This document shows positions 15,050-25,389 of a stretch of DNA of 64,000 bases, piece after piece. The translations under genes and the position numbers were made by a program. Origin of the DNA: Pontibacter vulgaris. GTDB taxonomy: Bacteria > Bacteroidota > Bacteroidia > Cytophagales > Hymenobacteraceae. The notes below the pieces were generated by a model that was not told the DNA's origin, searched no databases, and saw only the letters and a program-made list of their open reading frames with translations. Within the stretch, counting starts at the first letter, position 1. Every line of letters begins with the position of its first letter. The stretch is from NCBI RefSeq assembly GCF_022758145.1, contig NZ_JAJVDH010000006.1, forward strand, positions 248,001 through 312,000. The letters are read 5' to 3'.

Positions 15050-15121
15050 GGTCCGTTCGTCTAGGGGTTAGGACTTCAGATTTTCATTCTGGCAACAGGG
15101 GTTCGATTCCCCTACGGACTA
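15050..15121 (+). tRNA. tRNA-Glu (anticodon TTC)
   Basis: A 72-nt cloverleaf: acceptor GGTCCGT pairs with ACGGACT (15114-15120) through one G-T wobble, with discriminator A at 15121. The anticodon arm TCAGA/TCTGG encloses the loop TTTTCAT, giving anticodon TTC. The T arm AGGGG-TTCGATT-CCCCT is perfect. The 3' CCA is not encoded. A promoter precedes it and a terminator follows within 5 nt. It is the nearest tRNA to the accessory block at 16.3 kb, but I found no repeated copy of its 3' end downstream. Confidence 0.95.
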
Positions 15122-15125
15122 CTAG

Positions 15126-16315: not shown

Positions 16316-19198
16316 TTATTTAGAATGCTTTTTTATTCTACTTTCCAACGAATAGTTAACTGAGCTTCTATAAATATCAACTAAAGAACTATTAAATTTA
16401 TTAGATAAATCATTATTAAGAGTGTTTACGGGAATCTCACTCATCCAGTGCTTTATGGAGTTGTTAAGATTTTTACCAACATTTTTACTTATAAAATTTG
16501 ACCACTCTGATAAGGAGCTACCTTTGATACCGGCACGAACTGCCAATTCACCTTGATCAGAATGTGATTCTGCTTGCAATTGATTGTTCCATTCTGCTAA
16601 AGCTGCTGAAAGTATATCAATTTGGTCTTTACTTCGAACATCAATTCCAATCAAATCTACTGATTTATGCAAAATTGATGGAATAATCTTACCAAGTTCT
16701 GCTGCTAACTCTCGTAACAGGTTTGGATAGTTGGATAAGAGCTGAACGACATGTTCCTGTAATAACAAAGCTTTTGCATTCTCAATAATATTTGCGCGCT
16801 CTTTATCGTGTTCATTCCCTAATTTACGAAGCAGTCTAATGTGACAAACAAGAACTCGCAACACTTCAATAGGTTCTGTATGTTCAGTAATAGTATGTTC
16901 GGCTTCTTTTATAAATGTGAGTGCTAAATCTAATTTACCTTGTGCTTCCTGTATTAACGCAGACTGCAACAACAGTTCACGAACAAGTAATTTATTTCCT
17001 GACTTATTGACCGATAGTAGTGCCCGATTTACTAAAGTTTCCGCCTCTCTAAATAAACCCATCATACGAAGAGCCTCTAGTTCAAGGTGATAGAGTGGGC
17101 TAGTTGGACTTCGTTCTTGCCTCTCTCGCAGTACATCTAATGCACCTATAGCATTTCCAGTCTGAAGATGACGCTGTGCAGTTTTAGCAGTGATTTCTTC
17201 CCAGTATTCCAAGTCTGATCGTTTAAGTAAATTTGTATCGGGTGTTACCCCTAATTTTGAAGAGAGCCAGATACGAGCACGGTCTGGAAGTTCTTCTATT
17301 GCATACTGTAATAGTGGTTTTAATGTTGGTTGCCATAGATTATCAACTTTAGAGAATTCATCTCCACGAGAAAGCCTATGATAAATTTCTTCTGCACGTG
17401 AGAATTCATCATGTAAATCAGCATAATATTCAACTGCAAGATCGTGTATCGATTTTAAAACATCACTTGAGATTTCATTCTTTAGATCATTTATCATGAT
17501 ACGACGCACATCTTGCCGATGCCGCAGTGAGCTATCCAATGGATCAACTTCAACTAGTGAAACTTCCTTGGAAAGACTTTGCATTAGCAATTCAGCTTCA
17601 TAATATGAATTTAGTTTTAAGTTGCACGGTTTTGCTAGCACATTGATTATGACTGACGGTGTGATACGTCGTACAACTAGACCTGGAAAAGCTAATTTCT
17701 TAACTTCTGGATCATGAATATGAGCTAAGATTCTTCCATATAACCGTGCCTGTATTACTTCATCATTTACTCTAGAAATCAGCCATCCTCGTGAGCCTAC
17801 ACTTCGTAACTTTTCAACACCTTGTTCTTGGAAAACTTTAACAGCAAGACGAAGACTCAGAGGATTATAACCTACAACATCTAAAATCTCCTCTACAATT
17901 TTTTTATTAATAATTATTTCCTTCTCGGACTTACTTAAACATACCTCTAGAAATTGACGAGCCTCCCTTCTATCGAACTCTTTCAAAAGAAGTTTTTGAA
18001 CAGGAAAATTTCGAACCAGCGCTCTTCCAGATATGATTATTCTTAGATTAGGAGCAAGTTCTTGTATAGTCACAAATAAACTCCATAATTCCTCCACAAC
18101 CTCATTACCAAGAAATTGGGCTTCCTCAAACGTGTCCACAACAAACAATACTGGAGCGTTTACAGATCTTACTAATTCTCCGAATACTCTCGCGGATGAA
18201 CTAATGTGAGAATCACTATAATTACTAAGAATAATAGACTTTGATATTTCATAATTGTCCATATTGAGCAAGGCAACTTCAATAGCATCTTTAAGCCGAT
18301 TAAACTCAAGCTCCAATTCTAAATACTGACTTGCCAACTGACGAGCTCCTTCTAATAGAAGAGTGCTTGGTTGTTCTAAGTTCAATATTGGTCTATCTAA
18401 ATCAAGATAAACAAATGGTAATTTATCTGTGCTTGTTTTTTCAAAATGATCTAAGATAAATCGCGCTAATAAAGTAGACTTACCCATTCCACCCGGACCA
18501 TATACTAATAATGGGGGCCTTTCAAACAAACTATATACAAGATTGGAAGCGAAACGCCTTACATTGCGCAGGAAGTCTTTTGTTGGCAAAACACCAACAT
18601 AATCAGCTAAAATAACCAATTCTTCTTTTCTTCCAATGAATGTAGTTGAATTCAAACGACGAAGTGGTTCTAACAATTCTGCAACCGGCAAAGTTTTCTC
18701 CACCTGTTCTTTAACTGCTGTTGCTTCCACTAATATGTTATCAAACCATTGTAAAATTGATAACAATGAGAGAAGTTCTGTGCGTGTAAAGTCCTCTATA
18801 CTTACTTTACCAGTTTGAAGAAATTCATTTACAAATTTTTGACCAGGAACTTGTGGTTGAATTTTACTTGCTTGTAGTACTTTTAACATTTGCTCCCTTG
18901 TACCCAAGCGCTTTAATGCAGCCCGACGTACTGAAAGATTAACTTGCCAAAAGTTACCCTCACTAGAACCTACATAAGGCTCACAATATTTAAGAAAATT
19001 TCTCCAGCCTTTATGATTCTTATGTGTTATTTGTTTTTTATATACAGGATGAATTTGTTCAGGATCAAAATAAACAAGTAAACATGCTACTTCTAGATAA
19101 GAGGCATCAAGGTCTTCTTCAGTTTCAAAAATTTGTTTATATACCAACCTGTACTGATCCTGAAATTGATCTAGTTCTTCTTTAGAAAATTCCTTCAT
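16316..19198 (-). CDS. STAND-class NTPase, NACHT/NB-ARC-like, with helical C-terminus
   Basis: This 960-residue protein has three parts. Residues 1 to about 180 are helical with no named motif and may be an adaptor or effector-associated region. Residues about 185-480 are a STAND NTPase: Walker A GPGGMGKS (234-241), Walker B VLFVVDTFEEAQ (350-361), an arginine-bearing strand RIIISGR (386-392), and GYNPLSLRL, the STAND counterpart of the NB-ARC GLPL motif, before a winged helix. The remainder looks like TPR-type helical repeats (ALDVLRERQERSP, EALRMMGLFREAETLVNRA) and probably senses the trigger. Its ATG overlaps the upstream stop by 4 nt (ATGA). It is the last gene of the operon and the likely NTP-driven switch. 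Confidence 0.85.
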   Translation of the reverse strand: MKEFSKEELDQFQDQYRLVYKQIFETEEDLDASYLEVACLLVYFDPEQIHPVYKKQITHKNHKGWRNFLKYCEPYVGSSEGNFWQVNLSVRRAALKRLGTREQMLKVLQASKIQPQVPGQKFVNEFLQTGKVSIEDFTRTELLSLLSILQWFDNILVEATAVKEQVEKTLPVAELLEPLRRLNSTTFIGRKEELVILADYVGVLPTKDFLRNVRRFASNLVYSLFERPPLLVYGPGGMGKSTLLARFILDHFEKTSTDKLPFVYLDLDRPILNLEQPSTLLLEGARQLASQYLELELEFNRLKDAIEVALLNMDNYEISKSIILSNYSDSHISSSARVFGELVRSVNAPVLFVVDTFEEAQFLGNEVVEELWSLFVTIQELAPNLRIIISGRALVRNFPVQKLLLKEFDRREARQFLEVCLSKSEKEIIINKKIVEEILDVVGYNPLSLRLAVKVFQEQGVEKLRSVGSRGWLISRVNDEVIQARLYGRILAHIHDPEVKKLAFPGLVVRRITPSVIINVLAKPCNLKLNSYYEAELLMQSLSKEVSLVEVDPLDSSLRHRQDVRRIMINDLKNEISSDVLKSIHDLAVEYYADLHDEFSRAEEIYHRLSRGDEFSKVDNLWQPTLKPLLQYAIEELPDRARIWLSSKLGVTPDTNLLKRSDLEYWEEITAKTAQRHLQTGNAIGALDVLRERQERSPTSPLYHLELEALRMMGLFREAETLVNRALLSVNKSGNKLLVRELLLQSALIQEAQGKLDLALTFIKEAEHTITEHTEPIEVLRVLVCHIRLLRKLGNEHDKERANIIENAKALLLQEHVVQLLSNYPNLLRELAAELGKIIPSILHKSVDLIGIDVRSKDQIDILSAALAEWNNQLQAESHSDQGELAVRAGIKGSSLSEWSNFISKNVGKNLNNSIKHWMSEIPVNTLNNDLSNKFNSSLVDIYRSSVNYSLESRIKKHSK

Positions 19199-20280
19199 GC
19201 TATAGAAACATTATTTGTTCGTAAAAAAGCGCGAAGCCTCTCATGAATTAGTCTCATACCTTCTTTATCTAGAGCAGGAGGAGGAACTATTAAGCCAGCG
19301 AATATTTCGCTGCACTTAGTTTCAATCTCAACGGGCGTATAATTACTCCCAGAGGATTGAGCAACTTGTACTAAGTAATTTTCTATATCTTTCTTGTCAA
19401 GTGGTATAATGTCCTCTACAAGCACCCCACCCATAGATTTAAATGCGGATGTGTTATTATGTCCAAGCACTACAATCCAAAGATTTATACTCGGATTGTC
19501 TGCAACGTATTTAACTAATTCATCGACAAAAATTTGTGAATCTGACCCAGCTTCGCTCAAATCATAATGATCAAACACAAGACACCACTTAACATCATTT
19601 CCAAGAGCATTTCTGGCCTGTTCCCTTAAGTACCCACCTAATACAGATGGAAAATTTTTTATTTGCCTAGATAATTGTGCTTCAGAATCAGGAAACCTTT
19701 CATTTGGCAGAGACATTTCATTTTTAAGCTTAAAAATCATATCCTCTAAACTGTTGTTACCCATATCAATTTGAACCGCTAGTATTTTCTCGTGTTCTGC
19801 AACATACTGAACCAACCATTTGATATGAGTACGACCACTATTTCTTGGCCCACTAGTAATTAATGCATGATAATTAAAAGTACCACCTGGTGGCTTATCG
19901 AATAGGTTTTTTAGCTTGCTTTTTAAACTTTGTCGGTCAACAACAGGTTTGTCAAATGGCGAAAGAGCATCATATGGATTCTTAGTTCGTAAACCAAGAT
20001 ATTCACATATAGCACTACGCAACTCAGGCCAAGGGCTTATCATCAAAAGATGGACTAAAAATCTATTTAGAGTAACATTATCCATCTCTAACTGTTGCAT
20101 CAATTGAAAAACTACTGTCTCATAATTTGGACCAATAGAATATTCTTCAAGTCGCCTATTTAAAGCATAGTACACAACAGCGTTTAATTGGTCTAATGTA
20201 TACCTTCTAATTTCTTTCTCTAGCCGTTCCCGCTTATTCATGGCTATTCTATCTGTTATTTCCCCAAAAAATTGGAACAT
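19195..20280 (-). CDS. STAND-like NTPase module with altered P-loop, possible EAD
   Basis: The 361-residue protein has two parts. Residues about 15-100 form a helical domain (YETVVFQLMQQLE region) resembling effector-associated domains in pattern. Residues about 135-340 form an ATPase-like module. Its P-loop reads SGPRNSGRTH (143-152), where the invariant lysine of GKS/T is replaced by arginine; the Walker B strand reads WCLVFDHYD (232-240) and sensor strand IVVLGHN follows. This looks like a degenerate ('inactive STAND') module that may bind but not hydrolyse nucleotide. The start is ambiguous: the ATG at 20280 overlaps the upstream gene by 32 nt, while the ATG at 20241 leaves an 8-nt gap. 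Confidence 0.7.
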   Translation of the reverse strand: MFQFFGEITDRIAMNKRERLEKEIRRYTLDQLNAVVYYALNRRLEEYSIGPNYETVVFQLMQQLEMDNVTLNRFLVHLLMISPWPELRSAICEYLGLRTKNPYDALSPFDKPVVDRQSLKSKLKNLFDKPPGGTFNYHALITSGPRNSGRTHIKWLVQYVAEHEKILAVQIDMGNNSLEDMIFKLKNEMSLPNERFPDSEAQLSRQIKNFPSVLGGYLREQARNALGNDVKWCLVFDHYDLSEAGSDSQIFVDELVKYVADNPSINLWIVVLGHNNTSAFKSMGGVLVEDIIPLDKKDIENYLVQVAQSSGSNYTPVEIETKCSEIFAGLIVPPPALDKEGMRLIHERLRAFLRTNNVSIA

Positions 20281-21358
20281 TAGTCTTTTGTTCCATCTTG
20301 CTTATAACATGCCTAAGTGGTACACATTGATTATACCGTATGCCATTAGGATCACTTGCATGATGTATACCAAAAGGAGAAAGGTTGACATCGAAGCAGG
20401 GAGATCCCGAGGAACCATTTTCAGTATTTACACTGTGCCTTAATCGGTTTGCGTTCGTGTTGTAATTAAGGACTGTACCAAACGCTAATTCTAATGGCCT
20501 TCCTTGAGGATGTTGTGGTATCAGCACGACATCATTGGATTGCATAACAGTTGGATTGTTTTGAATTTGAATCCATCCTCTTTTTTTACCCTCCGGCAAG
20601 ACATCTTCACCAACATCTTCATTTAACTGCACCAAAGCATAATCTAATTCTGTATTTGTTGGCTCTACATTTGATTGACCTATATCTGCAAGCGCATAAG
20701 GACTGTAATCAATCAGCCATGAGCTTGCTACCGTAGTAACCCTACTCCTAACTTGCTGAGATAAGCTTACATCAACGGAATAATCAAAACGACAAGCAAT
20801 ATCTCCTGGAGCAAAACCATTCAATTGTTTATGCACATCCATAATGACATGATAGGCTGTTAGAATAAGGTTTGGAGCAACTAACCAGCCTGTTCCTACG
20901 GCATTGCCTTCTGGAATCTCAATACGGCAAATCTGACAACCTATAGAACGGAGGCGCTGAGTAAAGTCAGTAAACCCTTGAAATGATGTACGTTGCTCAA
21001 GAATTTTCTCCAGCGTTCGACTAGAGGTAATCACATCAATTGGTAGTGTCTCCTGATAATCTGGAGGTATAACCTGTTGAGTTGTCAAACCTAGTTGCTG
21101 AAGTAAATTTTGCAATCTTAAGTTGCCATTCCTATAACCTCCTGCCCCTATCAACAATTTATCAAGCCATCCTCCCTTCAGTGCTTGATCTACGAGCTCA
21201 TTAACAATAATAGTAAAACCTACTTGTAAGCCAACCTCATCTTCTAATCTTAATCCTAGCTTCAACATCAACATTCGCTTGAAATGATTGAGATCAAACG
21301 CGCTTTTAAGAGCACTCTCTATTTGCTCTCTCTGTTCTAGTGTAAGATTATCTATCAT
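20249..21358 (-). CDS. EAD1-trypsin-like serine protease
   Basis: Residues 1-93 of this 369-residue protein match effector-associated domain 1: LTLEQREQIESALKSAF at the start, then a helical core and a YRNGNLRLQNLL-type end. EADs are death-fold-like adaptors that join conflict-system proteins by like-with-like contact. Residues about 140-355 are a trypsin-like protease with His170 (LILTAYHV), Asp239 (ELDYALVQL) and Ser317 in GSSGSP. GTGWLV precedes the His strand, as in the EAD-linked protease group. There is no signal peptide, so it acts in the cytoplasm. It follows the protease-nuclease gene by 17 nt. I infer that a STAND partner activates it. Confidence 0.85.
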   Translation of the reverse strand: MIDNLTLEQREQIESALKSAFDLNHFKRMLMLKLGLRLEDEVGLQVGFTIIVNELVDQALKGGWLDKLLIGAGGYRNGNLRLQNLLQQLGLTTQQVIPPDYQETLPIDVITSSRTLEKILEQRTSFQGFTDFTQRLRSIGCQICRIEIPEGNAVGTGWLVAPNLILTAYHVIMDVHKQLNGFAPGDIACRFDYSVDVSLSQQVRSRVTTVASSWLIDYSPYALADIGQSNVEPTNTELDYALVQLNEDVGEDVLPEGKKRGWIQIQNNPTVMQSNDVVLIPQHPQGRPLELAFGTVLNYNTNANRLRHSVNTENGSSGSPCFDVNLSPFGIHHASDPNGIRYNQCVPLRHVISKMEQKTNVPIFWGNNR

Positions 21359-21375
21359 GGTTTGGAGTTGTGTGA

Positions 21376-23514
21376 TTATCTAAATCTTATTTGGTTAACA
21401 TTTGTCAAATATAACTCAGGAACCTCGAGTTGAGTATTAAGAGGATCCACTTCAGTTAATTCACCAAAAGATAAGCCCGTTCGTTGCTCAATAAGTGTGA
21501 TAGGCACTTGGGCTGTCTTATGCTTACCAAAGATAAATTCGTCCTCACTAAGGTATTCCTTCTGTGACATAATGTATCCAGTAGCACAGAGTTCATTTGT
21601 ATCATCATGTACAAAAGCTATTACTTTCCAAAAAGAAAGAGGTACTTTTACACCTTCACTATACTTTGTTATTGGATCACTATCTTCCAAAATGGGTCCA
21701 GTAAATACGGAAATTCGCATATCATCGGCGCGTGCATTGTGAAGAGCATAGTTTTCTAGTTCAAGCCAAACCCCTCCATTATGTATTTGCATTTGTGGCA
21801 CAGCATTTGTAACATGCATTGAGTCAGCATTCCCTTTCATAGCCTCCTCATCACTACCCCATATCGGATCTTCTCTCCTTGTCATATGGCCACGGCTAAA
21901 TTTAGGAGGAGCGCCATAACACTCTTTTATAATTTGGGTTTCCCTAGGTATCCTCGGATCTAGCTTCCAGCCAACTCGCTTCATGCCTCTTGAGCTTTTC
22001 CCATCGATGTTAACTGCACTGAACAAACAAATACGACGGGTGCGACTCATAACAACGGAAAAATGCTGATATTTAAGCTCATACTCAGCTCCGTCACTTG
22101 TGCTGAAAGTAAGTAAATCATGCTTACGTCTTGGGTCAACTACCTCAGGAAGAGACACTATATAATCTTCTCCTATAAAGTTAACATTGTAGCCTTTCCG
22201 ATCTAAATAGTCTTCAGGTCTAGCTTCAATATCTAAATTGACGTCTTCACCATCAACAGCTATAGATGTATCATCATTAAGGTTATAGATTTCTTTCCCA
22301 TTTAAAGACTCTCCGAAAGAGATAGTCACCTGCAGCGGTATAGTAAAAGTAGTTGAAGCAAGGGACCTCTGATTATGCTTCAGATTATCTGTTGATATAA
22401 AGCTAATTGAGTGCTTATTATTTGATGGAGTTACTTTATTTTCACTTCCTCGCTTAGTCTGGAGTGTGTCTGGAGTATAGGAAGGCCTTCGATTTTTAGT
22501 AGCAAGTTGCAAATTCTGCTTAACTATAGAGGCCGGGACTGCAAAATTTGCTTCTAGAAATCGCCCGGCAAAGTGTAAACCCAGAGCCTCACCAGATGAT
22601 AAATCGAAAACTACTGAACCGGAGTTACCGCCCAAAGTAGAGCAGTCATGTAGTAAAGTTTTACCAACTGAGATAACTTGACCGGGAGCTAATCGTTTCT
22701 TGTCAAATACATCTCCAAAAATATCAATCATAAGCTGCTGATCAGGTATTCGACTATCACGGGCAGGATAACCAATAACAGCAACATCTGGGTTACCATC
22801 AATGTGTCTAGTTGAGAGAGTAATTGGACTTGGCATTTCCTTCCCATCAACTGGTTCAACTTGAAGAAAGGCTACATCTGGAGCATGACTTTCTGCAATA
22901 TGTAGAATCCTTTTGAGCCTGAATGTGAAATCCCTTGGATTATCAGCCTCCTCCAAAAAATCTATAGAAGCTCTAATACTATTTCCATCGGTACCTTGTC
23001 TAAAAACAAAACCATTTCCGTTACTTCTACCAAACAATTCTGCTACATGACGATTGGTAACAACAATATCTTTTTCTACTAACCATCCTGTTCCTAGCCA
23101 AGTGTATCCTACTGGATGATTTTCTACTTCTATTCTGCCAACTGCTTGTATAGCGATATTTAATTGTTCTTGTGCAGCTATCAATTTATTTCTCCATACT
23201 TCACTTTCTGCCTCTTTAAAATTTAGAATAGTTTCACCTTCATATACAGAAAGAACTGGCCGTCCAACACGAAGTACAATAGTCTCTAGTGCTGAATTCT
23301 TGAGAGCAGGTGTTGTTTGAATTCCTTCAAGCCCTCCAGCTGATTCAGTAAACACAGATTTAAGCCTCGGTACTAGCTGTCCAGCTTGTCTTTTAAACTT
23401 TTCTGCATTTCTTATTTGTTGTAGCTCATCTGCTAACTGAGAATCACTCTTCTCAATTTTGCCAACAAATTCACGCACTTTACCATCTAAGTCATTTGCT
23501 GTTAACGTGATCAT
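21376..23514 (-). CDS. Trypsin-like protease fused to DNA/RNA non-specific endonuclease
   Basis: The 712-residue protein is leaderless. Residues 1-120 are a helical N-terminal region, possibly an adaptor. Residues about 125-335 are a trypsin-like protease with His156 (VVTNRHVAE), Asp213 (PDVAFLQVE) and Ser298 in GGNSGS. A linker follows (about 340-390), then residues about 395-690 are a NucA/Serratia-type endonuclease with the His543 motif SRGHM (family DRGH), TNAVPQ (family SNMxPQ) and HNGGVWLELE carrying the expected metal-ligand Asn. Such nucleases cut DNA and RNA non-specifically. An intracellular nuclease joined to a protease suggests a self-processed or proteolytically released killing effector. 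It is the first gene of the four-gene operon. Confidence 0.88.
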   Translation of the reverse strand: MITLTANDLDGKVREFVGKIEKSDSQLADELQQIRNAEKFKRQAGQLVPRLKSVFTESAGGLEGIQTTPALKNSALETIVLRVGRPVLSVYEGETILNFKEAESEVWRNKLIAAQEQLNIAIQAVGRIEVENHPVGYTWLGTGWLVEKDIVVTNRHVAELFGRSNGNGFVFRQGTDGNSIRASIDFLEEADNPRDFTFRLKRILHIAESHAPDVAFLQVEPVDGKEMPSPITLSTRHIDGNPDVAVIGYPARDSRIPDQQLMIDIFGDVFDKKRLAPGQVISVGKTLLHDCSTLGGNSGSVVFDLSSGEALGLHFAGRFLEANFAVPASIVKQNLQLATKNRRPSYTPDTLQTKRGSENKVTPSNNKHSISFISTDNLKHNQRSLASTTFTIPLQVTISFGESLNGKEIYNLNDDTSIAVDGEDVNLDIEARPEDYLDRKGYNVNFIGEDYIVSLPEVVDPRRKHDLLTFSTSDGAEYELKYQHFSVVMSRTRRICLFSAVNIDGKSSRGMKRVGWKLDPRIPRETQIIKECYGAPPKFSRGHMTRREDPIWGSDEEAMKGNADSMHVTNAVPQMQIHNGGVWLELENYALHNARADDMRISVFTGPILEDSDPITKYSEGVKVPLSFWKVIAFVHDDTNELCATGYIMSQKEYLSEDEFIFGKHKTAQVPITLIEQRTGLSFGELTEVDPLNTQLEVPELYLTNVNQIRFR

Positions 23515-23876
23515 AAGTAATGGATTAAGATTATTGTTTTATAGCGATAGTTATTTTCTTTAAAAAGCATTTGAATAACTGTATACAGGTAAAGGTGCAG
23601 TTAGAGCAAATTAATACCACGCGGTCTTAAACTTTAAACATCTAATGCTTCTTTTACTTTAAAAGATTACCCTATAAGCAAGTCATTCCGTTAAACATAG
23701 GCCCAAATCATAATTTTCCCTATAAATACCATACATCCCACATTTATATGTTAATACTATACATATTTAATTTTATAATATATATTATAATTAAAAACTA
23801 AATATCAATATTTAAAACTAATTCGTATAACTATAACAATTTTCATTTTAATATTATCAACTAATTATGCAATGCT
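23515..23876. promoter_or_regulatory. Divergent AT-rich promoter region with 18-bp palindrome
   Basis: These 362 nt separate the protease/nuclease operon (minus) from the subtilisin gene (plus) and must hold both promoters. The sequence is strikingly AT-rich. A perfect 18-bp palindrome TTATAATATATATTATAA lies at 23773-23790 and could be an operator, though AT palindromes arise easily by chance. I found no good TAnnTTTG box for either direction. Confidence 0.5.
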
Positions 23877-25229
23877 ATGAAAAAGCCTAAACTGGGAAAG
23901 CAAATCTTCTTATCTGAGAATAATGAAAGACTTCATTCGTTTGAAAAGCATATGCTTGAGAGTGGAAATGGTTATTCTTCTGACAAGCCTCTATACACAG
24001 GGAGGTACTTTATGATTTATACAAATGGGTTAGAAGGTGCTGCCAGAACTGAATCTCTATTGGAATCAGCAGCGGGCTTAAAAGTAGCGAGCATAACCGA
24101 TTTCTCTCCTAGAGAATTTACAGAAGATAAAGTTGAGGATGCAGATGTTTTGCTATACCCTCAGTTTGGAATCGCCTTGGTCAGCGCAGAGGAAGGCCAA
24201 ATACAAATGCTTGAAGCCAGAAGTCACGGACGGGATTATATATTAGAACCAGAAAAGATAGTATATGTGCCTGACGATATTCCCTCCGCTCTTAATGTAC
24301 CTACTACTTGGGGCATAAGTGCAATAAGAGCTAATTCATCTCCCTTTACTGGAAGAGATGTAAAAATAGCTGTGTTGGATACAGGCTTTGATCTTGATCA
24401 TCCTGATTTCAAAGACCGTGAAATTATTTCTGAATCTTTTGTTCCTAATGAGTCAGTAAATGACAAGCATGGACATGGAACACACTGCATAGGTACAGCC
24501 TGCGGTAATATAAATTATAACGGTATTAGGTACGGGGTTGCCAGAAATAGTATTATATATGCAGGAAAGGTGTTAAGTAACAGAGGCAGTGGCGCACAGG
24601 CATGGATTTTGAATGGCATGAACTGGGCTATATCAGAAGGATGTCGTGTTATATCTATGTCTCTCGGATCTGCTGTATTCCCAGGTCAAGGTTATGATCC
24701 TGCATATGAGCGTGCAGCAAGTTTTGCTCTTTCTAAAGGCACAGTTGTAGTAGCTGCTGCCGGTAACGAGAGCCGAAGATCTCATGGAGTTGTAAATCCG
24801 ATAGGTAGCCCCGCAAATTGCCCTTCTGTTTTAGCTGTTGGAGCACTCGACCGTTACTTAAATGTGGCAGACTTCTCTTGCAAATCAATAAACCCAGGAC
24901 AAATGGTAGATATTGCAGCGCCTGGAGTAGACGTATACTCTTCATGGCCTATGCCAACTAGGTACAGATCTATTTCTGGCACAAGTATGGCGACGCCTCA
25001 TGTTGCAGGTATATTAGGCTTACTTTTTGAGCAATATCCTGCTGAATCTCCGCAATTTGTTGTGTCACAATTATTAGAAATGGCACAGCCGCTTGAGCAG
25101 GATTTCAGAGATGTAGGACGAGGATTAGCAATATCACCTTCAAAAGTTTATCATGAAGCAGAAAGTAGTTATTACAATCAAGAACAAGTATTTAGACCAA
25201 CTTCCAGAAATAGAGTCCATGCTTACTAA
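23877..25229 (+). CDS. Cytoplasmic S8 subtilisin-family serine protease
   Basis: This 450-residue protein has no signal peptide. An N-terminal region (about 1-140) precedes the catalytic domain. The triad is clear: Asp168 (AVLDTGFDLDHPDF), His200 (HGHGTH), oxyanion Asn297 (AAAGNES) and Ser370 (SGTSMATPH). The tail is short (YYNQEQVFRPTSRNRVHAY). Without a leader it should act inside the cell, unlike most subtilisins. It is divergent from the STAND/trypsin/nuclease operon and overlaps a small propeptide-inhibitor gene by 77 nt. In context it may be a further protease of a cascade; alternatively the pair is an independent protease-inhibitor unit. Confidence 0.9.
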   Translation: MKKPKLGKQIFLSENNERLHSFEKHMLESGNGYSSDKPLYTGRYFMIYTNGLEGAARTESLLESAAGLKVASITDFSPREFTEDKVEDADVLLYPQFGIALVSAEEGQIQMLEARSHGRDYILEPEKIVYVPDDIPSALNVPTTWGISAIRANSSPFTGRDVKIAVLDTGFDLDHPDFKDREIISESFVPNESVNDKHGHGTHCIGTACGNINYNGIRYGVARNSIIYAGKVLSNRGSGAQAWILNGMNWAISEGCRVISMSLGSAVFPGQGYDPAYERAASFALSKGTVVVAAAGNESRRSHGVVNPIGSPANCPSVLAVGALDRYLNVADFSCKSINPGQMVDIAAPGVDVYSSWPMPTRYRSISGTSMATPHVAGILGLLFEQYPAESPQFVVSQLLEMAQPLEQDFRDVGRGLAISPSKVYHEAESSYYNQEQVFRPTSRNRVHAY

Positions 25230-25389
25230 AGAAGGTCTAATTATAGATAAATCGTTTGAATATGGAGTAATAACAGGACAGATAGAAGAGAGTCAAATTA
25301 AGCTCCTTAGTACATTACCTGAATTTGAAGACTTTAAATTGGATCAGGTGAAAGAATATCTTCCTCCACCTGATTCTGAGGTTCAATAG
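25153..25389 (+). CDS. Small I9-type protease inhibitor/propeptide-like protein
   Basis: The 78-residue protein matches the pattern of stand-alone subtilisin-propeptide-like (inhibitor I9) proteins: KVVITIK at the start, a helix, G-V-I-T-G in the middle, LSTLPEFEDFKLDQVKEY, then the tail PPPDSEVQ. In I9 proteins the extended tail occupies the active-site groove. Its ATG lies within the subtilisin gene in another frame, 77 nt before that gene's stop, so translation is probably coupled. Inhibition of the neighbouring subtilisin is a strong inference from family and overlap. Confidence 0.8.
   Translation: MKQKVVITIKNKYLDQLPEIESMLTKEGLIIDKSFEYGVITGQIEESQIKLLSTLPEFEDFKLDQVKEYLPPPDSEVQ

Follow-up and report, generated by a model that had tools for sequence, protein, structure and literature searches.

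Banks et al. (2026, PMC13236601) have described the LypABC operon of Caulobacter crescentus as a lysis system of the CARD-NLR-like type. According to the part of that paper drawn on here, LypA joins a CARD, a trypsin and an ATPase domain without Walker residues, LypB is an NLR with TPRs, and LypC is a trypsin-endonuclease. Lysis requires the protease serines of both LypC and LypA as well as the ATPase; the LypC nuclease residues H471 and N505 are dispensable (H471A/N505A still lyse Caulobacter), and one LypC homologue has no nuclease domain. The CARD of LypA binds the N-terminal domain of LypB, overexpression of LypABC is toxic, and the activation of CARD-NLR systems and of LypABC, like their route to death, is stated there to be unknown. 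Here we describe a locus of Pontibacter vulgaris (assembly GCF_022758145.1, contig NZ_JAJVDH010000006.1, positions 248,001 to 312,000; the whole of these 64,000 nucleotides is referred to as the window) in which a trypsin-like protease fused to a NucA nuclease (P0004), an EAD1-bearing trypsin-like protease (P0003), a small ATPase (P0002) and an NLR-like STAND ATPase (P0001) are encoded in one operon, divergent from a subtilisin (P0005) and a 78-aa open reading frame (ORF). It is probably a programmed cell-death locus working like LypABC (and thus of the CARD-NLR-like kind, and of the kind described below as System 3), with LypA split in two.

A gene set close to this one was described as System 3 by Kaur et al. 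(2020, PMC7159879). In the sections of that paper used here, its core consists of NucA and trypsin, either fused or sharing an operon, with a subtilisin (family Peptidase_S8, hereafter S8) in some cases; a subset has EAD1 on a trypsin paralogue, together with a further EAD1 protein in the operon or genome; some operons include a STAND NTPase N-terminally fused to the Death-like domain bDLD2 and trypsin; and a proteolytic cascade deploying NucA is the proposed mechanism. The P. vulgaris locus has the NucA-trypsin fusion (P0004), EAD1 on a trypsin paralogue (P0003), an S8 peptidase as a gene of its own (P0005) and a STAND NTPase (P0001), but the latter carries no trypsin (in two related loci, L023 and L040, the NLR does bear a further trypsin; numbers from L0xx to L1xx denote the loci of relatives). 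System 3 also differs in being described as mostly alphaproteobacterial, and those sections mention neither a separate small ATPase nor a small S8-linked ORF. The first-pass annotation of this DNA, made from the sequence without database searches, knew of no named system with this gene set, a statement that has to give way to System 3 and LypABC, both of which come close to it. In the open-licence literature we found no paper on the gene set besides Kaur et al. 2020, its 2021 sequel and Banks et al. 2026; the text and reference list of the last contain neither "Kaur" nor "EAD" as whole words, and the present analysis ties System 3 to LypABC. The kind of system is therefore known already, as are the EAD1-trypsin and S8 as such (PMC7159879); new are the split LypA, the EAD1-protease beside a detached ATPase, the matched EADs, and the joint presence of the NLR and S8/small-ORF modules.

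Other described systems share parts of this design. Gasdermin CARD-NLR systems (Wein et al. 2025), which have endonuclease or phospholipase effector variants according to the portion of PMC13236601 used here, also combine an adaptor-bearing trypsin with an NLR-like ATPase. The first-pass annotation had likened the locus to a gasdermin-less cousin of these systems, and the LypABC parallel supports that likeness; a gasdermin system proper was rejected, there being no gasdermin among the assigned ORFs of at least 90 aa in 16316-25389 (this covers the locus, not the genome beyond it). Hachiman and AVAST, for which trypsin-activated pro-nucleases of the metallo-beta-lactamase (MBL) fold are reported in the consulted part of Tuck et al. 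(2025, PMC12799240), likewise put a trypsin and its paired nuclease under a sensor that is an ATPase or a helicase, but their MBL-fold nuclease is encoded by a separate gene, whereas NucA is here fused to the protease. AVAST type 1 was rejected both on the NCBIfam model Avs1b, which reaches 13 bits on P0003 against a cut-off of 1500 and across 29 residues only, and on the nuclease, which is an Endonuclease_NS domain and not a separate MBL protein.

Correspondence with LypABC

For comparison we used the operon L139, in which all nine published LypABC residues fall in the right place (S262, T356, S360 and F361; K230 and D335; S296, H471 and N505) when the longest ORFs are shortened at their starts by 4 codons for LypA and 33 for LypC, LypB needing no such change. 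The shifted starts also reproduce the published end-points 592 (LypA) and 662 (LypC), and we take L139 to be the LypABC operon, an identity resting on these published residues.

P0004 is 37.6% identical to L139 LypC in the nuclease segment and 33.0% in the trypsin segment. It matches the Pfam families Trypsin_2 (1.9e-14) and Endonuclease_NS (4e-41) with intact motifs in both parts (trypsin H156/D213/S298; nuclease RGHM with H543), and its best PADLOC match, to the model 'nacht' (6.6e-18), is confined to the trypsin part. P0003 shares 26% identity with the LypA trypsin region; it matches Trypsin_2 (4.5e-15) and, barely above the cut-off of 24.2 bits, EAD1 (2.7e-5, 25.0 bits), and its catalytic motifs are present (H170 within TAYH, and S317). 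In P0001 the Walker A motif is intact (GPGGMGKS, K240), the matches to the Pfam families AAA_16/NPHP3_N/NACHT and TPR all lie below cut-off, and fold matches include the STAND-TPR structure 6mfv, CED-4, Avs3 and NRC4. Its N-terminal domain resembles that of LypB, the part that binds LypA (prob 73 and 51.7 in two comparisons; pairwise hhalign values, here and below, are rough). P0004 and P0001 thus have the make-up of a LypC-type trypsin-endonuclease and of a LypB-type NLR with Walker A and TPRs. The NLR-like STAND protein, the EAD1-protease and the protease-nuclease fusion had all been proposed in the first-pass annotation, and Pfam, motifs, folds and the LypABC alignment agree with it, as do the catalytic residues that it had named (S298 and H543 in P0004, K240 in P0001, S317 in P0003), each found in an intact motif.

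The remaining protein, P0002, has the P-loop GPRNSGRT, in which Arg takes the place of Lys, an alteration already recognised in the first reading. In an AlphaFold2 (AF2) model its N-terminus is a helical bundle of low predicted local distance difference test score (pLDDT), and the ATPase core is modelled and has fold matches. The profile of the P0002 family matches the C-termini of LypA proteins with prob 98.3 over 227 columns (profile-profile), and as a control those C-termini match NLR ATPase profiles with prob 0.1 and 3.7 only. Strict Walker A motifs are found in none of seven LypA-type C-termini. The description of P0002 as a STAND-like ATPase with an altered P-loop therefore stands, but rather than an independent protein it is better explained as a detached C-terminal ATPase of LypA.

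By these comparisons P0004 corresponds to LypC, P0001 to LypB, P0003 to the protease of LypA and P0002 to its degenerate ATPase, LypA appearing here as two genes with EAD1 standing where LypA has its CARD. The locus and LypABC share the trypsin-NucA fusion, the TPR-bearing NLR ATPase, an adaptor-bearing trypsin, a degenerate ATPase domain and intact catalytic residues. They differ in that LypA is a single protein with a CARD, whereas P0003 (with EAD1) and P0002 (with the P-loop Lys replaced by Arg) are separate genes; in the S8 gene and small ORF added in Pontibacter; and in gene order (LypA-B-C as opposed to NucA-trypsin-ATPase-NLR). The locus works like LypABC, on our reading, yet is not LypABC itself, as it has no one-protein LypA. 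A sequencing frameshift as the origin of the split was rejected, since the same separate trypsin gene is found in L060 and L066, and the remaining split loci, in each of which the ATPase is apart from the trypsin, also oppose it.

Related loci: split ATPase, adaptors and subtilisin

Relatives of P0004 were taken from a scan of one genome per species (the best 80 of 216) and from plasmids, where nine of the 100 records with a P0004 match were opened, plus five of seven with a P0001 match (of the remaining P0001-matching records, one was already among the nine and one a near-copy by its figures). The ORFs of these loci were searched with profiles seeded by the window proteins. The best 80 of 216 relatives span Bacteroidota, Actinomycetota, Acidobacteriota, Planctomycetota, Pseudomonadota, Myxococcota and others, and those on rhizobial plasmids are 45-48% identical over 89-98% of the protein. 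Among 59 genomes, its own included, P0004 occurs at full length in its own only, 16 others giving nuclease-domain matches; relatives are absent from 50,697 phage records, and none was confirmed in a scan of viral contigs.

Neighbours were counted around 85 fused trypsin-NucA ORFs; L022 (the P. vulgaris locus itself) and L044 (the same stretch as L014) were omitted, and loci without a fused ORF, such as L020, L100 and L102, fell out. A further trypsin accompanies the fusion in 46 loci, an NLR in 17, a separate P0002-type ATPase (P2) in 9 and S8 in 10; the 56 loci whose two flanks each cover 5 kb or more give 35, 13, 8 and 9, respectively, and 17 without any of these. Every one of the 17 NLR-bearing loci also has a further trypsin (L088 and L089, whose genes are identical, are both counted, so that 16 are distinct). 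The nuclease motif [RK]GH[ML] and the serine motif GxSG are kept in 17/17 NLR-linked scan and plasmid loci and in 4/4 additional Caulobacteraceae loci, L139 included. Starting from the NLR instead, six distinct P0001-matching plasmid records have a trypsin beside it in five cases and a NucA gene in two, the sixth being a short match with neither. P2 as the anchor gave one weak match besides the window in 395 genomes of the phylum and none on plasmids. By profile search, three or more of the genes do co-occur in genomes that are unrelated, a pattern which the first-pass annotation had said would support its reading, and the gene arrangement is far beyond chance, because Chitinophaga tropicalis (L060) has the identical four genes in the identical order.

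In 12 loci other than the window, P2 is encoded separately from the trypsin and next to an NLR, ten from the scan (L020, L023, L040, L041, L048, L051, L053, L058, L060 and L066) and two from plasmids (L122 and L124). L066 differs from the order kept in L060 solely by a fusion of P2 and NLR in a single 1294-aa ORF, and in L041 the NLR is present as two overlapping ORFs. On the Hymenobacter plasmid of L020 (9001-10825) the trypsin-nuclease is apparently in pieces, with the adjoining trypsin, P2 and NLR genes open. LypA-type genes (L021, L085, L086, L088, L090, L091, L096 and others) have trypsin and ATPase in one ORF. Being fused to the protease in some loci and to the NLR in L066, the ATPase would seem to link the two, as this pattern argues. 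In P0002 and in the P2 of L060, L066, L041, L053 and L124 the P-loop ends with GR[ST], and the remaining seven loci have GK[ST]; because of this recurrence we regard the alteration as a trait of the family and not a local loss. In a 23-row tree of the NLRs the window groups with L060 and L066 (99/99). A single origin of the split form was rejected, since this tree needs two changes between fused and split states, though a single clade is not rejected by the approximately unbiased (AU) test (p 0.07).

The trypsin-P2-NLR trios of L122 and L124 have no NucA gene in the stretch covered, and for this reason the nuclease looks exchangeable. In L122 (9404-15995, Paracoccus plasmid NZ_CP102356.1) the trio is followed by three large hypothetical proteins, the first two without a Pfam match, which are possible alternative effectors.

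EAD1 is found on 22/56 of the further trypsins across loci, and in four loci on both the trypsin and the ATPase. Both matches exceed the Pfam cut-off in L122 (8e-11 on the trypsin, 2e-13 on P2) and L053 (5e-7 and 9.5e-6). In L041 the trypsin matches at 4.8e-9 and P2 at 2.3e-4, below the cut-off, and in L040 the trypsin matches at 1.5e-5; for these two loci the pairing comes from an iterated EAD1 model, which matches the P2 of L053 at 1e-18, of L041 at 2e-17 and of L040 at 9e-14 (its seed included the P2 of L041 and L122, not of L040 or L053). Such sharing suggests that trypsin and ATPase may dock through EAD1 in place of being fused. The pair of L023 also matches by pairwise score (z 10.5), its P2 being unmatched by the iterated model, and in L048 and L051 the trypsin has EAD5 and the P2 N-termini resemble EAD5 at prob 33 only. 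There are exceptions: the P2 N-terminus of L058 scores z 7.5 with the EAD1-trypsin of L041 and -1.1 with its own trypsin (which has no EAD1 match), and the own-pair z is -0.6 in L020 and 0.9 in L124. Where protease and ATPase carry the same EAD, as in several loci, the pairing predicts which surfaces should bind. The N-terminus of P0002 was considered as a hidden EAD1 and dropped as such, having no significant EAD1 match and being a low-pLDDT helical bundle.

P0005 has a strong Peptidase_S8 match (2.8e-51), with DTG at 168, HGH at 198 and GTSMA at 368, and shares its N-terminal region with the S8 protein of L083. There, an 85-aa ORF 19 nt after the S8 gene matches the 78-aa ORF of the window (E 8e-4 among 22 sequences compared). 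The small ORFs of 80-83 aa that follow S8 in L015, L018 and L102 match each other and not that of the window; in L015 and L018, S8 and small ORF immediately precede the trypsin-nuclease and the stretch covered shows no NLR, and in L102 the small ORF precedes a NucA ORF without trypsin. No such small ORF was recognised in the other S8 loci examined. In L091 (4304-14651) and L096 (8698-19556), trypsin, NucA and S8 are parts of one protein, 1278 and 1310 aa long, respectively, whose gene is next to those for another trypsin, a LypA-type protein and an NLR. The first-pass annotation had listed the subtilisin and its small partner but given the pair no role. An I9-type identity had been suggested for the small protein of the window; the weak match to L083 and a pattern seen by eye favour it, whereas no Pfam family matched the ORF, and by its pattern it is a possible propeptide-like inhibitor.

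Proposed relay and competing explanations

From homologies, gene order, recurrence and intact catalytic motifs we infer how the locus might act, from its trigger and the sequence of cleavages to the way of killing, and likewise the bridging and inhibitor roles. The TPR tail of P0001 would sense a trigger related to infection or stress, and P0001 would assemble via its ATPase. P0002 would bridge P0001 to P0003, a role proposed because P2 is fused to the NLR in L066 and its counterpart to the protease in LypA. Clustering would then activate P0003, which would set off a proteolytic relay together with the P0004 trypsin domain; the relay would process P0004, and probably host targets too, freeing protease and nuclease activity, and the death of the cell would stop the spread of a virus or other element. 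Alongside lysis, the NucA domain is expected to target nucleic acid, because its motif is kept in all of the 17 NLR-linked and four Caulobacteraceae loci. The divergent subtilisin may form a second protease module that feeds the trypsin-nuclease or the cascade and is restrained by the small protein. Tentatively, and with more doubt than conviction, we propose that covalent fusion and matched EADs (EAD1-EAD1/EAD5-EAD5) are interchangeable ways of wiring a death relay, and that the trypsin-nuclease can be driven by an NLR relay or by an inhibitor-held subtilisin, both being present here. Because the split form gives the sensor, the bridge ATPase, the protease and the protease-nuclease a gene each, every link is separately testable.

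Several observations weigh against a LypABC-like locus with a split LypA. The role demonstrated for LypABC is the release of gene transfer agents, phage defence being only possible according to the part of PMC13236601 used here. P0001 has low identity to LypB (23%; blastp, E 3e-5), and P0002 has no blastp match in LypABC of L139. The P2 profile also matches NLR ATPases (prob 98.7 and 94.1), comparably to its match with the LypA ATPase; as these belong to one superfamily this is to be expected, and the tie between P0002 and LypA therefore rests on the LypA side of the comparison and on gene context. The EAD1 of P0003 has no profile similarity to LypA N-termini (prob 0.0-0.2), and homology of EAD1 with the LypA CARD was rejected on profile grounds, though the N-terminus of the LypA-type protein of L091 matches the iterated EAD1 model (1.4e-6). 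Within the locus, the P0002 N-terminus has no significant match to EAD1 (hhalign 0.2-0.3, P 0.12-0.15), and the own-pair z of P0002 and P0003 is 3.0, those of L060 and L066 being -0.2 and -0.1. A search of the whole genome at E up to 1 gave no EAD1 match other than P0003, which itself barely exceeds the cut-off (28.2 bits in this search), so that a diverged copy could escape. Lastly, 35/85 trypsin-NucA loci show no partner in view (29/85 have less than 5 kb on a side), and the nuclease is therefore not always alongside an NLR.

The manner of killing allows a different account, in which the nuclease is the executioner, the relay freeing the NucA domain and DNA or RNA being destroyed. This is the model of the first-pass annotation, which had put a nuclease where gasdermin systems have their pore-former. 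We regard this as a real possibility, if not the favoured one: the motif conservation just mentioned fits it, as do the trypsin-activated MBL pro-nucleases of Hachiman and AVAST (reported in the consulted part of PMC12799240) and the NucA-deploying cascade put forward by Kaur et al. (2020) in the sections used here. These precedent nucleases have another fold, however, and the available part of PMC13236601 tells against a killing nuclease, the H471A/N505A and domain-less forms of LypC standing beside protease serines that are essential. It is also conceivable that a mobile element or gene transfer agent has co-opted a lysis or developmental module, such as the gene-transfer-agent role of LypABC would imply, and that this module has no part in defence. 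Nothing seen links the locus to such particles (the genome was not searched for them), and with P0004 relatives neither in phage records nor confirmed in viral contigs we find this distinctly improbable.

A rather unlikely alternative to one joint death locus would be that two independent systems meet here, one being the NLR/EAD1-trypsin/NucA operon and the other a subtilisin-inhibitor pair that is unrelated to it and only happens to lie upstream. The nearest full operon homologues, L060 and L066, indeed have no S8 gene in the stretch covered, and S8 is here on the opposite strand. Against this, S8 lies within 8.5 kb of the trypsin-NucA gene or is fused to it in the 10/85 loci counted above (9/56 where each flank reaches at least 5 kb; raw counts, uncorrected for the genome-wide background of S8), S8 and small ORF immediately precede the trypsin-nuclease in L015 and L018, where no NLR is in view, L091 and L096 have S8 fused to the nuclease gene, and S8 is reported in System 3 (Kaur et al. 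2020, PMC7159879, in the sections used).

Layout and surroundings of the locus

Features of the P. vulgaris locus, in window coordinates
Feature	Description	Position	Strand	Basis
P0004	Trypsin-like protease fused to NucA/Endonuclease_NS nuclease, 712 aa	21376..23514	-	Pfam, motifs, LypC alignment
P0003	EAD1 adaptor and trypsin-like protease, 369 aa	20249..21358	-	Pfam; alignment to LypA trypsin
P0002	Helical N-terminal domain and small AAA+/STAND ATPase, altered P-loop	19195..20280	-	Profile-profile, AF2 core, fold matches
P0001	NLR-like STAND ATPase with TPR tail, 960 aa	16316..19198	-	Sub-cut-off Pfam; blastp to LypB; fold matches
P0005	Subtilisin (S8), 450 aa, signal peptide not seen by eye	23877..25229	+	Pfam; shared N-terminal region
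78-aa ORF	Possible I9/propeptide-like inhibitor	25153..25389	+	Weak match to 85-aa ORF of L083
Intergenic region	AT-rich, divergent, presumed site of both promoters	23515..23876	.	Sequence read

The operon is transcribed in the order P0004, P0003, P0002, P0001, with a 17-nt gap between the first two and a 4-nt overlap (ATGA) between the last two; P0005 and the small ORF, which overlaps the end of the P0005 gene by 77 nt, are divergent. All six ORFs, the gap and the overlaps lie where the first reading had placed them. From its first ATG, P0002 has 361 aa and overlaps P0003 by 32 nt; the ATG at 20241, 7 nt past the P0003 stop, is the likelier start (348 aa).

A Bacteroidota-type promoter pattern has no match in the intergenic region and three across the window, not above chance. 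G+C content (2-kb steps) is 0.36-0.39 over 16-26 kb and 0.37-0.48 in the rest of the window, so that the locus leans towards AT but is not unique there. A tRNA-Glu gene lies at 15050-15122, near the downstream end of the locus. No clean empty site was found in five genomes of the same genus, which keep a histidine kinase-response regulator pair, the other flank being non-syntenic within the 19 kb taken.

Defence-type genes are near, by annotation, in 5/14 of the plasmid regions opened (there was no control set). On the Paraburkholderia plasmid pSYMBR3459 (L021, 18051-19821), a LypABC-type operon has in its vicinity a cyclic-oligonucleotide-based anti-phage signalling system (CBASS) pair annotated as a DncV-like synthase and its activated phospholipase. 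A Dpd/queuosine-type cluster (annotated as dpdA, dpdB and queCDE) lies beside the trypsin-nuclease and trypsin genes of the Bradyrhizobium plasmid pB41S5 (L017, 14093-20821). On a Rhizobium phaseoli plasmid (L013, 406-7512), genes for a MoxR ATPase and a protein with a SAV_2336 N-terminal domain stand beside those for trypsin and trypsin-nuclease, a neighbourhood that may resemble the MoxR-vWA conflict systems described by Kaur et al. (2020).

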